Shown piece after piece: positions 6,106 to 13,196 of a stretch of 34,733 nt of DNA (position 1 is the stretch's first letter; every line of letters begins with the position of its first letter). Under the pieces are notes generated by a model. It was not told the origin of the DNA, ran no database searches, and saw nothing but the letters and a program-made list of their open reading frames with translations. This DNA is from Deltaproteobacteria bacterium (GTDB taxonomy: Bacteria; Desulfobacterota; DSM-4660; Desulfatiglandales; HGW-15), in assembly GCA_020342025.1 (NCBI GenBank), contig CP070840.1, positions 3,322,877-3,357,609 of the forward strand, read 5' to 3'. The position numbers and the translations under genes were made by a program.

Positions 6106-6879
6106 ATGAGGCCCATAGAAACTGCCCTTGTCTCTTTTCTCATTTTGGGTTCAATGATCTTCAACAACGCCTGCACGACTTTGAGTTCGCGGGAAACACC
6201 CATCGTGAGGGTCGTCCGGGAATATGCGCCGGCGGTGGTCAATATCAGAACCGAAAAGATCTTGGATTTGAAAGAATCTCAGGAGTGGGGAATGTATGGG
6301 GAGGAACTAGATAGCTTCTCCCAAGAATATTTTGAGAAGTCCCATTCTGAAGGTACGCTCATATACAAGAGCATAGGATCAGGTGTTATCCTGGACAATA
6401 ATGGCCTCATTGTTACAAATGCACATGTGGTTCAGAAGGCTACGGATATTTACGTGGTGTTAAATGATGGCACCATCTTGCAAGCAGAAGTCATTGGAAT
6501 GAACCAAAATGACGATTTGGCCATAATCAAAGTAGCGCTTCCCTATTCCGTCAGAGAGGTAAGATTTGCAGATATCAAAGACCTGATGATTGGCGAGACT
6601 GTTATAGCCATAGGAAACCCGTTGGGGCTGGAGAATTCTGTCACAGTGGGCGTTTTAAGCGGAAAAGATAGGGCATTTTCAAGTGCGCGCTGCGCCTATG
6701 TCTGTTCAGGATTGCTGCAGATTGATGCCCCTATAAATCCCGGCAATAGCGGTGGCGCCCTTTTAAACCTTGACGGAGAACTCATCGGCGTGAATCTGGC
6801 AGTCGTTCAGAGTGCTGAGAGCATCGGCTTCGCCGTCCCCGTAGACAAAATACTGAACCTGCTGAAGATATATAAGTAA
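6106..6879 (+). CDS. Exported trypsin-like (S1C, DegP/HtrA-type) serine protease without PDZ domain
   Basis: A 257-residue protein with an N-terminal hydrophobic export segment ending near FNNACTT. The Cys at about 23 could be a weak lipobox (NNAC). The chymotrypsin-fold catalytic triad is visible: His107 in TNAHVV, Asp137 in NDDLAIIKV and Ser215 in NPGNSGG, along with GSGVILDNNGLIVTNAH and IGNPLGLENSVTVGVLSG, which are diagnostic of HtrA-like proteases. The protein ends right after the protease domain (FAVPVDKI), so it lacks the PDZ domains of full DegP (about 450 residues). It probably acts in the periplasm in protein quality control or regulated proteolysis. A good AAGGAAA site precedes ATG 6106. 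Confidence 0.9.
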   Translation: MRPIETALVSFLILGSMIFNNACTTLSSRETPIVRVVREYAPAVVNIRTEKILDLKESQEWGMYGEELDSFSQEYFEKSHSEGTLIYKSIGSGVILDNNGLIVTNAHVVQKATDIYVVLNDGTILQAEVIGMNQNDDLAIIKVALPYSVREVRFADIKDLMIGETVIAIGNPLGLENSVTVGVLSGKDRAFSSARCAYVCSGLLQIDAPINPGNSGGALLNLDGELIGVNLAVVQSAESIGFAVPVDKILNLLKIYK

Positions 6880-6948
6880 AGAATCCTGACCTGGAGGACC
6901 AGGCTTTGGGATATCCCTGTAAGGGATGATTTGCAGGATCGGTATTTC

Positions 6949-7117
6949 TGAATTCGAAATCCTAATATCGAAATCCGAAACAAATTCGAATATCGAATTT
7001 TTCAATGCCCCAAACAAACCCCCATATGAACAGCACCCAGAGATCTTTTGTTTAGGTAATTTGAATTTTGGTCATTTTATATTGTTTCGAATTTCGGATT
7101 TCGTGCTTCGGATTTAG
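6949..7117. repeat. AT-rich inverted repeat array (TTCGAAATCCGAA type)
   Basis: The left arm (about 6949-7003) carries iterated blocks such as CGAAATCCGAAACAAATTCG. The right arm (about 7055-7117) carries the complementary blocks (GTTTCGAATTTCGGATTTCG, CTTCGGATT). The two arms flank about 50 bases of unrelated sequence and could fold into one long hairpin. Iterated CGAAATCCGAA-like sequences recur between genes in many environmental bacterial genomes. A separate small hairpin, ATCCCT-GTA-AGGGAT, lies at 6913-6927. No gene is present between 6880 and 7185. Confidence 0.6.
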
Positions 7118-7185
7118 AGCCGTGCTATTGGCAACCGCAAAGCCAAGAATTTCTGACCTAGTCGGAAAACCAGGTTTTGCAAAGG

Positions 7186-7677
7186 CTATTTCCTGCTCTT
7201 GTAGAATTTCACCAGCCCGAGCACATCTTTGGCCACGAATCGACCAATGGGTCCAGAACTATAACAGGCAACCTCTATAGTCTTGTCCGGGCGGATGAGA
7301 AAATTGGCCGCGTGGAGATATTTCTTGTCCTTTTCATAGTAGGTTCCGGTAATCTCTGAAACCTTCTCGGGGTCCAGACCATAACCAACCGGAAAGGTGA
7401 CTTTGGCCTTTTCAGCGGTCTCTCTAGCCTTTTCGATGGGATCCACAGACCCGGCAATCACAGTGATCTCTTCCGCTTCAAACGTCTTGATAGCCGATTG
7501 AAATTCAGCCAACTGCTGACTGCAAAAAGGTCACCAGTAACCCCGATATAAGATAAAAACAGCATACCCCTTTCCGAAATCTCTTGGAAGCGAGAGCGTA
7601 TCGCCCGAAATTGTTTCCATTTCCAGTTCAGGGAATCGGTCATTGGCATCCAAAAACACGTCACCTACTTTAGCCAT
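7186..7677 (-). CDS. Peroxiredoxin-like selenoprotein (in-frame UGA read as selenocysteine)
   Basis: Reading continuously from ATG 7677-7675 to TAG 7188-7186 gives a 163-residue thioredoxin-fold protein of AhpC/TSA (redoxin) type with one in-frame TGA at 7533-7531, codon 49. The context is FILYRGYW-U-PFC: exactly where relatives have the peroxidatic Cys of RGxWCPxC, with a second Cys at residue 52 giving a U-x-x-C redox motif. Sequence is family-like both before (VFLDANDRFPELEME) and after the codon (SQQLAEFQSAIKTF, SVDPIEKARETAEK, FLIRPDKTIEVACYSSGP). GGAG lies eight bases before the ATG. A SECIS-like hairpin follows the UGA. It likely reduces peroxides or disulfides in the cytosol. Automated callers will probably truncate it to 7186-7512. 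Confidence 0.85.
7505..7533 (-). promoter_or_regulatory. Putative bacterial SECIS element
   Basis: On the minus strand, the UGA (7533-7531) is followed after 11 bases by TCAGC (7519-7515), a five-base loop AGTTG (7514-7510) and GCTGA (7509-7505), a perfect 5-bp stem. The apical loop contains GU and sits about 17-21 bases after the UGA. This matches the known layout of bacterial SECIS hairpins, which lie within the coding region just after the UGA and present a GU loop to SelB. The lower stem is weak. Confidence 0.6.
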
Positions 7678-7776
7678 CCTTAGCTCCTTTCTTTAAATGA
7701 GAAATCTGAACCTCAGCTCGGTAAGTCTAAGCTAGCCGCCCCAGGATGGGCAAGTCAATAGGGTGAAACCCGTATT

Positions 7777-7805
7777 TTGAGTGAAGATTATATGTATTTT
7801 ATCTT
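7777..7805 (+). promoter_or_regulatory. Candidate sigma-70 promoter for the TIM-barrel gene
   Basis: TTGAGT (7777-7782) and TATCTT (7800-7805) are separated by 17 bases, in the 266-bp gap between the divergently oriented selenoprotein and TIM-barrel genes. A small hairpin, GGGT-GAA-ACCC, lies just upstream at 7761-7771. Box scores are moderate only. Confidence 0.35.
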
Positions 7806-7943
7806 GCGAAACGATCCCGGAATGCATCCTGCTTCAGAACGGGGAGTTTCACTTCAGCCCCGGTTGCTTCACAAACGCGGATTTGTGGTTGTTTGGAAGA
7901 AACGGCTATGGTATGCAAGTCTTATAAGGGAGGTTTCACACCA

Positions 7944-8741
7944 ATGCTCTATGGAGGCATGAATTTCCCCATAAAACCGGTCTTAGAGGAAGTTGAGGCC
8001 ATTGCGGAATTGGGATTTGACTACGTGGAGTTGGCCATGGATCCTCCTCAGGCCCACTATAAGATAGTTAAGCAGCAGAAAGATGAGATACTGAGTGCCT
8101 TAGAGCGATACAATATGGGAATCGTTTGCCATCTTCCCACCTTCGTCTCCACAGCGGATCTAACCGATAGCCTAAGAGAAACATCTCTGAATGAAGTATT
8201 GGAATCTCTTCAAGTTGCGGCCCACCTTCGATCTCTTAAGGTGGTTCTGCACCCAAGCTATATAAGTGGACTCAGCGTCTTAGTGATGGATCAGGCCAGA
8301 GATCGTGCCTGGAGGAGTCTTGAAGCCATTGTGGAAAAGGCCGATCAACTGGGCGTCTCCCTTTGCCTCGAGAACATGTTCCCGCTGACAAATTCGCTCG
8401 TCGAGCCCGAGCACTTTATTCCGGTCTTTGAGAACTTTCCCTCACTCAAAATGACCCTCGACATAGGGCACGCGCATATGCAAAGCAAAGGGGGTAAGCG
8501 GGCCCTTCGTTTCATTGAGAGGTTTGGCAACCGAATCGACCATGTCCACGCAAACGACAACTTCGGCAAAGAGGATAATCACCTCCCCATCGGAGCAGGA
8601 ACGGTCGATTTCCCTAGGATTACCAGGGCCCTAAAGAAAATCGGTTACGATGAGACAGTAACCCTTGAAGTCTTCTCACGAGACAGAGACTATCTTAGGA
8701 TAAGTCGGCAAAAGCTGGCTGCCATGTTTGCCGCCCGATGA
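7944..8741 (+). CDS. Sugar phosphate isomerase/epimerase-like TIM barrel (AP endonuclease 2 family)
   Basis: A 265-residue protein from ATG 7944, chosen because AGGGAGG lies about 12 bases upstream and MLYGGMNFPIKPVLEEVEAI is a natural family start; ATG 7908 in the same frame is possible. Metal-site motifs of the xylose-isomerase-like barrel are present: VVLHPSY, CLENMF (Glu), MTLDIGHAH (Asp, His), IDHVHANDN (His) and a late VTLEVFSRD (Glu). DNFGKEDNHLPIGAGTVDFP is the typical loop near the product end. Members are metal-dependent isomerases, epimerases or endonuclease IV relatives; the substrate cannot be read from sequence. It is cytosolic, and lgt follows 65 bases downstream with a small hairpin between them. 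Confidence 0.85.
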   Translation: MLYGGMNFPIKPVLEEVEAIAELGFDYVELAMDPPQAHYKIVKQQKDEILSALERYNMGIVCHLPTFVSTADLTDSLRETSLNEVLESLQVAAHLRSLKVVLHPSYISGLSVLVMDQARDRAWRSLEAIVEKADQLGVSLCLENMFPLTNSLVEPEHFIPVFENFPSLKMTLDIGHAHMQSKGGKRALRFIERFGNRIDHVHANDNFGKEDNHLPIGAGTVDFPRITRALKKIGYDETVTLEVFSRDRDYLRISRQKLAAMFAAR

Positions 8742-9746: not shown

Positions 9747-12098
9747 ATGGAACAGCCCATTGAGGATTACCCCTTTCGCAGCGTGCTCAGTCTTGAGCCG
9801 CTTATTGACTACCTGAATCGCGTAGTGCAGGATTCCCAGGAGGTAATGCTTTGCCAAATGCAAAACCTTCAGGAAAGGCTGAGGGCGGCACCAGAGCTGA
9901 ACGGCCCAGTGGAGGATCTGAACGTGCTGGAGCGTCACCGAGACTTGGTACGGACCCTCATGGGCTTTGTGTTTCCGCCGCTTTACTGGGACACCGAGGC
10001 CTTTGGAGCCATCATTCCCTTCTCCATGAAGCCCTTTTTCGTCTCCCCACGATTCCAGCAGCTCTTCCTTGATCGAGACGGATCTTTCCACGGGCGGCTC
10101 AATCTGGATGACGAGATGTTCCACAGGGGACGAGTCATCAGGGCCTATCTATTCATCTTGCAGGAGTTTTACGACATTCACCAGTCCCTCGACTATCCCA
10201 TTATTCGTATCGTGCCCGATTCAGAGACCGGTCTGGATCGGCATTTCAAGATGAACCTGGACTTCCGCTTCGTGCGACCCCATGCCCTCAAAGAGCCCAG
10301 ACCCCTTACAGAGGATGAGCGTGCATTTATTTTGGAACACTTGACCGAACCTGAGGTGCTTCGCGAAATCCTTCCCCCAGAGGATTTTGAGTTGCATGGG
10401 TTCACTATACTGCACGGTGTGGATGTGACGGAATCAGAGGTCTTATCTGCCTTGGAGAGGGATCTCATTGACCAGGAGTCCGTCGTTTCCCAGGGGGGAA
10501 TCATGCGCCTTCAAGAGAGGCTCCGAACCCTCTTCCGCCGTCCAGATCTAATTGCCGGCCTAGATGCTATTCAGGGGCATCAAGTCCTTCAACTCAGCTC
10601 AGGATGCGAGATGAGCCACTGTTGCATATTCCAGGACACACGCCATATCCCTATTTCCGAATTTGAGGGAACCTTCTATGAAAAGGCCTTGCAGGGAAAA
10701 GAAATAATCCGGATCCCTGATATTCGTGAGGCGTGTTGTTCGCCTAAACAGTCGGAAGAAGAAATGCTCAAAATGGGAATCAGGTCTTTCCTGATAGCAC
10801 CCCTTTATTACAAGGACGAGCTTATCGGCATTTTACATCTTGGCTCTCCTCGACCCAGGGACTTGGGGCCCGTGGACGCCTTGCTCATGCAGCAGATCCA
10901 ACCCCTCTTCTCCATCGCCATCAAAAAGGCCTTGGATGACTTTGACGTCCAGGTCCAGGGCGTCATTAAAGAGAAATGTACCGCCATCCATCCGTCCGTG
11001 GAATGGCGTTTCCGCAAGGCCGCCTTCAATCAATTGGAAGATCTTCGTATGGGAAAGGCATCGGAGATCGAGCCTATCGTCTTCAATAACCTGTATCCCC
11101 TTTACGGCATCTCTGACATCCGCGGGTCGGCCCAGGAGCGAAATCGGGCCATTCAGAAGGATCTAATCCAGCATCTAAACTTGGCCCTGAAAGTGGTCTC
11201 CCTGGCCAATGAGGCCAGACCTTTGCTCATCCTCCAGGAATTGGCGGGACGCGTTAATAGGCATCTTGAACGTCTCCATGCCGGGTTGGGAACCGGGGAT
11301 GAATTATCGGTCTCAAAATTTCTCCGCGAGGAGGTGGTACATAGCTTTTCATATCTCAAGGGTTTTGGCCCCAAGGTGATGCGGGCCATCGAGGCCTACG
11401 AGTCTGCCATTGATCCCCATGTGGGTACGGTCTATTCGCTCCGCAAGGAATTCGAGGAGAGCGTCTATCTTCTCAGCGACACCCTGGCCACCTATTTGGA
11501 TCAGGAGCAGACCGAAGCACAGGCCATTTTCCCCCATTATTTTGAGAGGCATCGGACAGACGGTGTGGACTACCTCATTTACATGGGCGCCTCTCTCAGG
11601 GAGGATGGCAACTTCAACCAGATATACTTGAAAAATCTGCGCCTCTGGCAACTGAAGGTGGCCTGCGGTATGGCCTGGCATACGGAACAGCTGAAATCTT
11701 CCCTCAAGGTGCCTCTTGACACCGCGCACCTCATCCTTGTTCAAGACACGCCCCTTTCAATTCGATTCCGTTATGACGAGAAAAGATTCGATGTGGATGG
11801 GGCCTATGATATCCGGCACGAAATCATCAAGAGTCGTCTGGATAAGGCCGTTGTCAAAGGCGGAAGGGACAGGCTGACTCAGCCGGGGAAAATTGCCATT
11901 GTCTACGCCCATCCTGAGGAGGCAAAGGAAATGCGTCCTCACATTGAATTCCTCCAGTCAGAGGGGTACCTGACCGGGGAATTGGAGACCGTGGAATTGG
12001 CAGATCTACCCGGGGTGCAGGGTCTCAAATCCTTTCGCGTGGGGGTGAATCTTGAGTCCCAGGCCCTTTCTGAGAAGGCCAAGATGATCGCCAGCTAG
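9747..12098 (+). CDS. Large GAF-domain protein of unknown function
   Basis: A 783-residue protein with no membrane segment. A GAF-like sensory domain lies around residues 265-395 (VLQLSSGCEMSHCCIFQDT, EEEMLKMGIRSFLIAPLYY, then KDELIGILHLGSPRPRDLG). It is followed by a helical segment with FNNLYPLYGISDIRGSAQER, a sequence I associate with long GAF proteins, notably in Bacteroidetes. The C-terminal part (VDYLIYMGASLREDGNFNQI, LRLWQLKVACGMAWHTEQLK) looks like a conserved domain of the same family; it carries no kinase, cyclase or GGDEF motif I can see. GGAG and an AT-rich promoter-like stretch precede ATG 9747. It ends six bases from the convergent DUF362 gene with no evident terminator. Confidence 0.65.
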   Translation: MEQPIEDYPFRSVLSLEPLIDYLNRVVQDSQEVMLCQMQNLQERLRAAPELNGPVEDLNVLERHRDLVRTLMGFVFPPLYWDTEAFGAIIPFSMKPFFVSPRFQQLFLDRDGSFHGRLNLDDEMFHRGRVIRAYLFILQEFYDIHQSLDYPIIRIVPDSETGLDRHFKMNLDFRFVRPHALKEPRPLTEDERAFILEHLTEPEVLREILPPEDFELHGFTILHGVDVTESEVLSALERDLIDQESVVSQGGIMRLQERLRTLFRRPDLIAGLDAIQGHQVLQLSSGCEMSHCCIFQDTRHIPISEFEGTFYEKALQGKEIIRIPDIREACCSPKQSEEEMLKMGIRSFLIAPLYYKDELIGILHLGSPRPRDLGPVDALLMQQIQPLFSIAIKKALDDFDVQVQGVIKEKCTAIHPSVEWRFRKAAFNQLEDLRMGKASEIEPIVFNNLYPLYGISDIRGSAQERNRAIQKDLIQHLNLALKVVSLANEARPLLILQELAGRVNRHLERLHAGLGTGDELSVSKFLREEVVHSFSYLKGFGPKVMRAIEAYESAIDPHVGTVYSLRKEFEESVYLLSDTLATYLDQEQTEAQAIFPHYFERHRTDGVDYLIYMGASLREDGNFNQIYLKNLRLWQLKVACGMAWHTEQLKSSLKVPLDTAHLILVQDTPLSIRFRYDEKRFDVDGAYDIRHEIIKSRLDKAVVKGGRDRLTQPGKIAIVYAHPEEAKEMRPHIEFLQSEGYLTGELETVELADLPGVQGLKSFRVGVNLESQALSEKAKMIAS

Positions 12099-12104
12099 GG
12101 GAAA

Positions 12105-13196
12105 TCACACTTCTATAAGCCTGCCACCCTCTGGAAGGTCACTCTCCTTGTACCCACAGTCTTCCAACATTCTTCGGGCCGCCTTTATATTTGGCTTCCA
12201 GCCCATCCTTTCACCGCGAAACTTGGTCGCCACCTGAAAGTCAACAACGGGTGAGAGCACACCCATGGCGAGAAAATTTGGCTGATGGGTTGGAGCGCCC
12301 CCTGGGCCACCTTTACTTGCCCAGAGTGCGTCTATGAGGCAGAGTTGCTGTCGGGGATAGAGGACCTTGCCCGTTCGTTTGTCCATAGGGCCCAGAATCT
12401 CGGTTGTCTTGTTAATGGCCATGAGGTAGTCTTGGCTTCCCTGCTCATGCGCCGGCCCTGGGGAGAAGGTGCCGAGATGATTTTTCATGGTCATGGTAAA
12501 TCCGCCAAACCTGCTGCTGTGCCCCTTACACATGGCGATGTTTATGAGAATGTCCACCGAGCTGTCCACAAGGTGTCTCAGACACCTGGATTTTTCGTCT
12601 CCACCCTCCCACGGCTCCGGTACGGATGTGAGCGTATCAATCCCGCCCCAGGTACCTTCTATCTTGACACCTTCTGGGAGGCCAGCAAAAGGTGTGTGCC
12701 TGCTCATGGTCCCGCCGTGGGTCCCGTCGTAGATATGGATATTGGAAGGCGTTACCCCAAGCAGACCGGTTAGCGTATGACAAATTTTGGCCATGACAGC
12801 GCTGCGCGTGTGTTGCTGGGCGATATTGTTTGTCTTTATTGCTACCATCGTGTCAGGCCATGACTTACGGGGAGGTCTGATAAAAATCGTCCGCCACGCC
12901 TCCTCCGGATTCCTCGTCTGCACAAGACCGCACGCGAGCTTGTCGATATTTTCCCAGACCACGTCTCTAACAACAAGGTCATCCTGACGGGACCAGGAGT
13001 AAAATTCTCTACCTGTCCTCGTCATGTTGCTGTCCATGATTCCGACGACACGAAGATTATCCACATTCGGGTGAACCACGGTTCCCCTGGCCCACGCCGT
13101 GCGGGCATTCCGAACCCATACCATGGGGAATGCCGTAATTCCAGCACCCAGAATGACGGCCTTTTTCACGAACTTTCTTCTAGAGATCCTCTTCAT
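12105..13196 (-). CDS. Tat-exported DUF362 domain protein
   Basis: A 363-residue protein with a twin-arginine signal: KRISRRKFVKKAVILGAGIT, then a hydrophobic stretch and an AWA cleavage region. GGGAGAG precedes the ATG. DUF362 features include IFIRPPRKSWPDTMVAIKTN, NIAMCKGHSSRFGGFTMTMK with NHLGTFSP, and AINKTTEILGPMDKRTGKVL. DUF362 proteins are widespread in anaerobes, often next to Fe-S or redox genes; their biochemistry is not settled. Export through Tat suggests folding, or cofactor loading, in the cytosol. A paralogue at 15895 is also Tat-exported, and a nitroreductase-ferredoxin gene starts divergently about 420 bases away. Function beyond the family name is not assignable. Confidence 0.85.
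   Translation of the reverse strand: MKRISRRKFVKKAVILGAGITAFPMVWVRNARTAWARGTVVHPNVDNLRVVGIMDSNMTRTGREFYSWSRQDDLVVRDVVWENIDKLACGLVQTRNPEEAWRTIFIRPPRKSWPDTMVAIKTNNIAQQHTRSAVMAKICHTLTGLLGVTPSNIHIYDGTHGGTMSRHTPFAGLPEGVKIEGTWGGIDTLTSVPEPWEGGDEKSRCLRHLVDSSVDILINIAMCKGHSSRFGGFTMTMKNHLGTFSPGPAHEQGSQDYLMAINKTTEILGPMDKRTGKVLYPRQQLCLIDALWASKGGPGGAPTHQPNFLAMGVLSPVVDFQVATKFRGERMGWKPNIKAARRMLEDCGYKESDLPEGGRLIEV

Follow-up and report, generated by a model that had tools for sequence, protein, structure and literature searches.

Does an in-frame TGA in a redoxin-like gene of a deltaproteobacterium end the gene, or is it read as selenocysteine (Sec)? The question is raised by a gene on the reverse strand of a 34,733-nucleotide (nt) stretch of DNA from Deltaproteobacteria bacterium (GCA_020342025.1, contig CP070840.1, forward-strand positions 3,322,877 to 3,357,609), the whole of which is referred to hereafter as the window. 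A preliminary description, made from the letters of the window alone, proposed that this gene encodes a peroxiredoxin (Prx)-like selenoprotein with Sec at the peroxidatic Cys position. Our analysis lends strong support to the selenoprotein proposal: the TGA is conserved, the bases downstream of it are constrained at the nucleotide level, homologues have Cys at the same column and sel genes are found in related carriers. The placement at the peroxidatic position was not borne out by the alignments. We regard insertion of Sec at codon 49, within a UxxC redox centre (U, Sec), as very probable from the sequence comparisons, an estimate that leaves the substrate aside.

The reading frame and its inner TGA

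The gene has 48 codons counted from the ATG, one TGA (7533-7531, where it had been placed originally), 114 further codons and a TAG, on the minus strand (Table 1). The read-through protein matched the AhpC-TSA family (PF00578) with 64.2 bits (cut-off 26) over residues 12-135, so that the match spans the TGA and the frame is family-like on both sides, as first described. Redoxin (PF08534) also matched across the TGA (32.9 bits; cut-off 26.6). A score above the curated cut-off of PF00578 and a UxxC centre are the features of the Prx-like UxxC proteins, and the read-through protein has both. The ribosome binding site reported ahead of the ATG was found again (7690-7684, with a gap of 6 nt), and purine-rich GGAG-type sites were seen by eye 5' of the ATG in most relatives. 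A scan of 6850-8000 for sigma-70-type sites found nothing promoter-like. None of the NCBIfam models reached its cut-off for the window protein, for the homologues P0117, P0171 and P0146 or for the products of L002, L023 and L049.

Relatives were defined as matches over about the whole length with at least 35% identity. Within one order, 14 of the 85 genomes had such a match, and in another order 1 of 6; among the matches listed, at least 7 of 395 genomes drawn from the phylum had one, two of which had already been counted. The window and 20 other genomes gave a clade set of 21 sequences, the relatives being about 35-65% identical to the window. Each of the 20 relatives had exactly one inner TGA, and it fell at the homologous codon in 21/21 sequences. 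Forty-eight codons from the ATG preceded it in all but one (L023, whose start is ambiguous); the 3' end of L012 is cut off by the contig end. Since the TGA occupies the same codon in every sequence, the alignment indicates that its presence at codon 49 is not due to chance. Matches that lack the TGA do exist; among those listed they were about 20-38% identical or short 3' fragments, mostly with partial coverage. Apart from the fragments, these look like other Prx- or ResA-type proteins (for example G296, G357 and G463, 26% identity over 138-142 residues).

Three more distant redoxin genes of related genomes (L030, L042 and L052) have an in-frame TGA within FYRGxWUPYC and are candidates for further UxxC Prx-like selenoproteins.

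Bases downstream of the TGA

A hairpin resembling the bacterial Sec insertion sequence (bSECIS) is formed by the bases 12-26 nt after the TGA, with a 5-bp stem and an AGUU(G/A) loop. All five pairs can form in 17 of the 21 sequences and four of the five in the remaining 4. When codons were shuffled synonymously within each gene (2000 trials), complete hairpins were obtained in a mean of 1.1 and a maximum of 6 of 21 sequences. Codon choice was counted in 20 genes, with L048 omitted. Gln54 and Gln55 were encoded by CAG in 39/39 cases. Leu56 was TTG or TTA in 20/20 genes; of the 133 Leu codons that follow later in these genes, 26 were of this kind. Ala57 was GCT in 18/20, compared to 34 of 182. 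In one relative (L022) both sides of the stem were changed together, from A-U to G-C. These comparisons indicate that the bases after the TGA are constrained beyond what the protein requires.

The published bSECIS model, as given in PMC13188914, calls for a loop of 3-9 nt, an upper stem of 4-16 bp, a G in the first two loop positions, a spacing of 16-37 nt and an energy of -7.5 kcal/mol or lower. With a loop of 5 nt, a stem of 5 bp, G at loop position 2 and a spacing of 16 nt, the element lies within three of the four published constraints, and the hairpin alone falls short of the energy limit. The N1-N2 loop pair that is mostly present in the model is missing here (A and G).

Several observations weigh against a functional hairpin. 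In the window it is weak (-6.4 kcal/mol for a 39-nt region, z -0.21 relative to shuffles); a 45-nt region reached -9.0 kcal/mol, though mostly through other folds. A second register competes in the window, and the pair 18-26 had a probability of 0.16. RNAalifold retained only 4 pairs. Covariation did not exceed that of shuffled columns, a comparison that is uninformative because the stem hardly varies. Uniform codons were also seen outside the hairpin (e.g. Ser140, Asp13 and Arg146), so shared ancestry or codon bias contributes to the uniformity. Finally, residue 56 is Val in L048 and the loop there is AGGUG. No Rfam family matched in the window at gathering scores.

Table 1. Positions of the gene and its elements in the window
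Feature	Position	Strand	Basis
Prx-like UxxC selenoprotein gene (predicted), ATG to TAG, 163 codons, Sec codon 49	7186..7677	-	Frame and Pfam match
TGA, probably read as Sec (codon 49)	7531..7533	-	TGA in 21/21 clade sequences; Cys here in CxxC homologues
Codon for Cys52, putative Sec49 partner, aligned with the peroxidatic Cys of peroxiredoxins	7522..7524	-	Cys in 44/44 rows; Prx alignments
bSECIS-like hairpin, UCAGC / AGUUG loop / GCUGA, TGA-to-loop 16 nt	7505..7519	-	Pairing in 21 sequences; synonymous shuffles
Ribosome binding site AAAGGAG	7684..7690	-	6 nt upstream of the ATG
False 108-amino-acid open reading frame, start at TTG within the bSECIS-like loop	7186..7512	-	Shared start codon 56 of short homologue calls

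Cys homologues, database records and selenium genes

A protein search found 342 homologues, of which 120 were listed and classed by a motif script. Ninety-three were short calls without the redox centre, 26 were full-length and carried Trp in the codon 49 position, and P0117 (42% identity) alone had Cys. Searching with P0117 in turn gave 613 proteins, again with 120 listed; 118 of the 119 besides P0117 showed CxxC and one was classed otherwise. The P0117 group consists of CxxC redoxin-domain proteins that resemble the Sec clade in length, in RGxWCPxC and in YSSGxxGR, and are its neighbours in the tree; they have Cys where the Sec clade has Sec. Their source names include Deinococcus, Gemmatimonadales, Gammaproteobacteria and Ktedonobacteraceae. 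The alignment with redoxin homologues that the preliminary description had proposed as a check thus places Cys of the CxxC homologues at the column of codon 49, and an in-frame UGA where homologues have Cys is the pattern of a bacterial selenoprotein.

A maximum-likelihood tree was built with residue 49 masked from 21 TGA rows, 26 rows called Trp and 37 Cys rows (P0117 with 36 of its 119 listed matches). The TGA and Trp rows together formed one group (support 100/99) that contained 0/37 Cys rows, and within it the Trp rows were interleaved with TGA rows. Under the rooting used, a single replacement of Cys by Sec on this branch is probable. The direction of the change is not certain, because the root is set by two long outgroup rows (L042 and L052) that are themselves UGA genes.

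Could the TGA instead be Trp in a reassigned code (table 4), as the 26 full-length entries, more than a fifth of the listed homologues, would have it? Every one of these entries comes from a contig of 605 to 1625 bases, which fits TGA having been read by genetic code 4, and they lie among rows whose DNA shows TGA (P0027 beside L023). Four of the 21 clade members (L016, L020, L047 and L050) end their own gene at TGA, and the residue in homologues is Cys, not Trp. Reassignment was rejected on these grounds and we consider it extremely improbable; the Trp in the full-length entries is probably false. A genuine stop, leaving either a dead gene or only a product that begins at codon 56 (TTG), is scarcely more credible. 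It would account for the decayed copies in six relatives (below) and for the start of 71 of the 93 short database calls, which begin at codon 56, the TTG of the hairpin loop. However, the TGA and the 48 codons upstream of it persist across divergent genomes and no further stop interrupts the frame; initiation at codon 56 would cost the protein its first three strands and the start of the central helix, and this TTG sits within the constrained loop. A pseudogene and an internal TTG start were both rejected on these grounds. Read as Sec, the TGA explains the short calls as truncations: the listed entries are mostly fragments of ~90-120 amino acids, many of them starting inside the bSECIS-like loop, others being full-length with Trp, and the expectation that standard gene callers would truncate the protein was correct for 93 of 120.

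The selenium genes selA and selB were surveyed in the 85 genomes of the order, and tRNA-Sec in five related genomes. Among the 14 carrier genomes of the order, selA was over the cut-off in 12 and selB in 12, with at least one of the two in 14/14. There was no selA match in G052 and only a piece of selA in G041; G001 and G025 had no selB over the cut-off. Carriers are not enriched, because across the order selA is over the cut-off in 73 of 85 genomes and selB in 66 of 85; that these genes are common anyway takes weight from the result, which is consistent with a selenoprotein. In the first five related genomes, which include two with gene fragments only (G004 and G005), selA was over the cut-off in 5/5, selB in 3/5 and tRNA-Sec over its score in 3/5. 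Because 5 of 14 control genomes likewise exceeded the score of the tRNA-Sec model, this search is weak evidence.

A further point on the unfavourable side is that six genomes (G004, G005, G064, G072, G137 and G237) have only fragments of the gene that lack the Sec centre, and can therefore do without it. Of the four surveyed for selenium genes, G005, G064 and G072 have both selA and selB over the cut-off and G004 has selA, so that an inability to decode Sec does not by itself explain why the gene was lost.

The fragments (L025 in G004, L026 in G072, L029 in G005, L031 in G064, L051 in G137 and L054 in G237) keep the 3' part alone, except that early codons are also retained in G072 and G137, where an internal deletion took out the Sec centre. 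In G004 and G005 the fragment directly follows a homologue of the window gene at 9747-12098.

Active site, likely function and place among selenoproteins

Peroxiredoxins proper are defined by a PxxxTxxC active site together with the Arg of a KGxxR stretch, and the Pro and Thr of the former and this Arg are catalytic. In our alignments with peroxiredoxins codon 49 stands opposite the Thr of PxxxTxxC and Cys52, which is Cys in 44/44 aligned rows, stands opposite the peroxidatic Cys; codon 49 is thus not the peroxidatic position, as had been supposed. The Pro place is taken by Arg45 (44/44 rows) and the Arg place of KGxxR by Glu135 or another residue (Arg in 0/44 rows). Arg146, in contrast, is kept in 44/44 rows and aligns with the Arg of the IGR/TGR stretch. 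The fold model of the whole chain is closest to peroxiredoxins. By this model the protein has the fold of a peroxiredoxin, with the active-site residues of one kept only in part.

These results bear on what the Sec protein does. A true thiol peroxidase, with hydroperoxide reduction as its main function, is favoured by the fold, by Cys52 at the peroxidatic place and by Arg146; the altered Pro, Thr and Arg places argue against it, and we consider it a minority possibility. A thiol:disulfide oxidoreductase is preferred with some confidence. UGA49 would be decoded by SelB and Sec-tRNA, aided by the small hairpin 16 nt downstream, giving a thioredoxin-like Sec-Pro-Phe-Cys centre with Sec49 immediately ahead of the central helix, whose first turn contains Cys52. 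As in thioredoxin-type UxxC enzymes, the Sec49 selenolate would be the nucleophile that attacks a disulfide or peroxide and Cys52 the resolving partner; the product would be a Se-S bond, which a cellular reductant such as thioredoxin could reopen. The protein is probably cytosolic, as no obvious signal peptide was seen by eye.

That the class is not new was anticipated correctly: UxxC is the motif of known Prx-like selenoproteins (PMC13188914, PMC2398784), so a Sec with a Cys three residues on is not, as had been suggested, special to this member. Closest in Table 1 of PMC13188914 are the Prx-like thiol:disulfide oxidoreductase selenoproteins (PF00578, UxxC/UxxU), which share the Pfam family, the UxxC centre and many Cys homologues. 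The window clade also resembles 'Prx-like 1' of the Global Ocean Sampling (GOS) survey (225 Sec and 2,740 Cys sequences; PMC2398784), a likeness drawn from Pfam family and motif, and may lie inside that group. The Redoxin family selenoprotein of the same Table 1 (PF08534, UxxC) has the same motif, whereas the window gene scores higher with PF00578. For these two UxxC classes PMC13188914 lists WP_010940744.1 and HEU0032618.1. The Sec peroxiredoxin of that table (TxxU) shares the fold and Pfam family, but its Sec occupies the second motif position instead of the first. The match to the SelL-related redox protein (NF040769) was weak, at 27.8 bits far under the curated cut-off of 120, which places the protein outside that family. 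Literature searches, made by text and not by sequence, did not find the clade named.

Gene context was compared at 14 loci (open reading frames of at least 110 amino acids, flanks of unequal length, the first 20 kb of the window). The comparison showed no conserved neighbour: the only group that included the window was the gene itself, and two groups of reading frames were common to three loci each, the window being in neither. In the window, 9747-12098 (+) encodes a 783-amino-acid GAF-domain protein with no NCBIfam match; homologues 54-68% identical occur in 9 of the order's 85 genomes, with a further 6 holding weaker or partial matches. The reading frame of the convergent DUF362 gene (12105-13196, -) stays open past its terminal TGA as far as 12006. 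This TGA looks like a true stop, because the extension overlaps the end of the gene at 9747-12098.

The window gene adds a well-defined branch, Sec-only among the sequences examined, to the known Prx-like selenoproteins. To date it has been seen in Desulfobacteria and relatives alone; an all-species scan gave five of its loci, and the remaining genome searches were confined to that phylum. Quite speculatively, the branch may carry a rebuilt Prx active site in which Sec at the catalytic Thr place pairs with the old peroxidatic Cys, forming a Se-S relay that would be unworkable with Cys, so that the gene never reverts and is lost by deletion. The comparison also exposes a repeated annotation fault, through which the branch is stored in databases mostly as a shortened protein. 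Such records would be put right by a curated family model that places Sec at codon 49.
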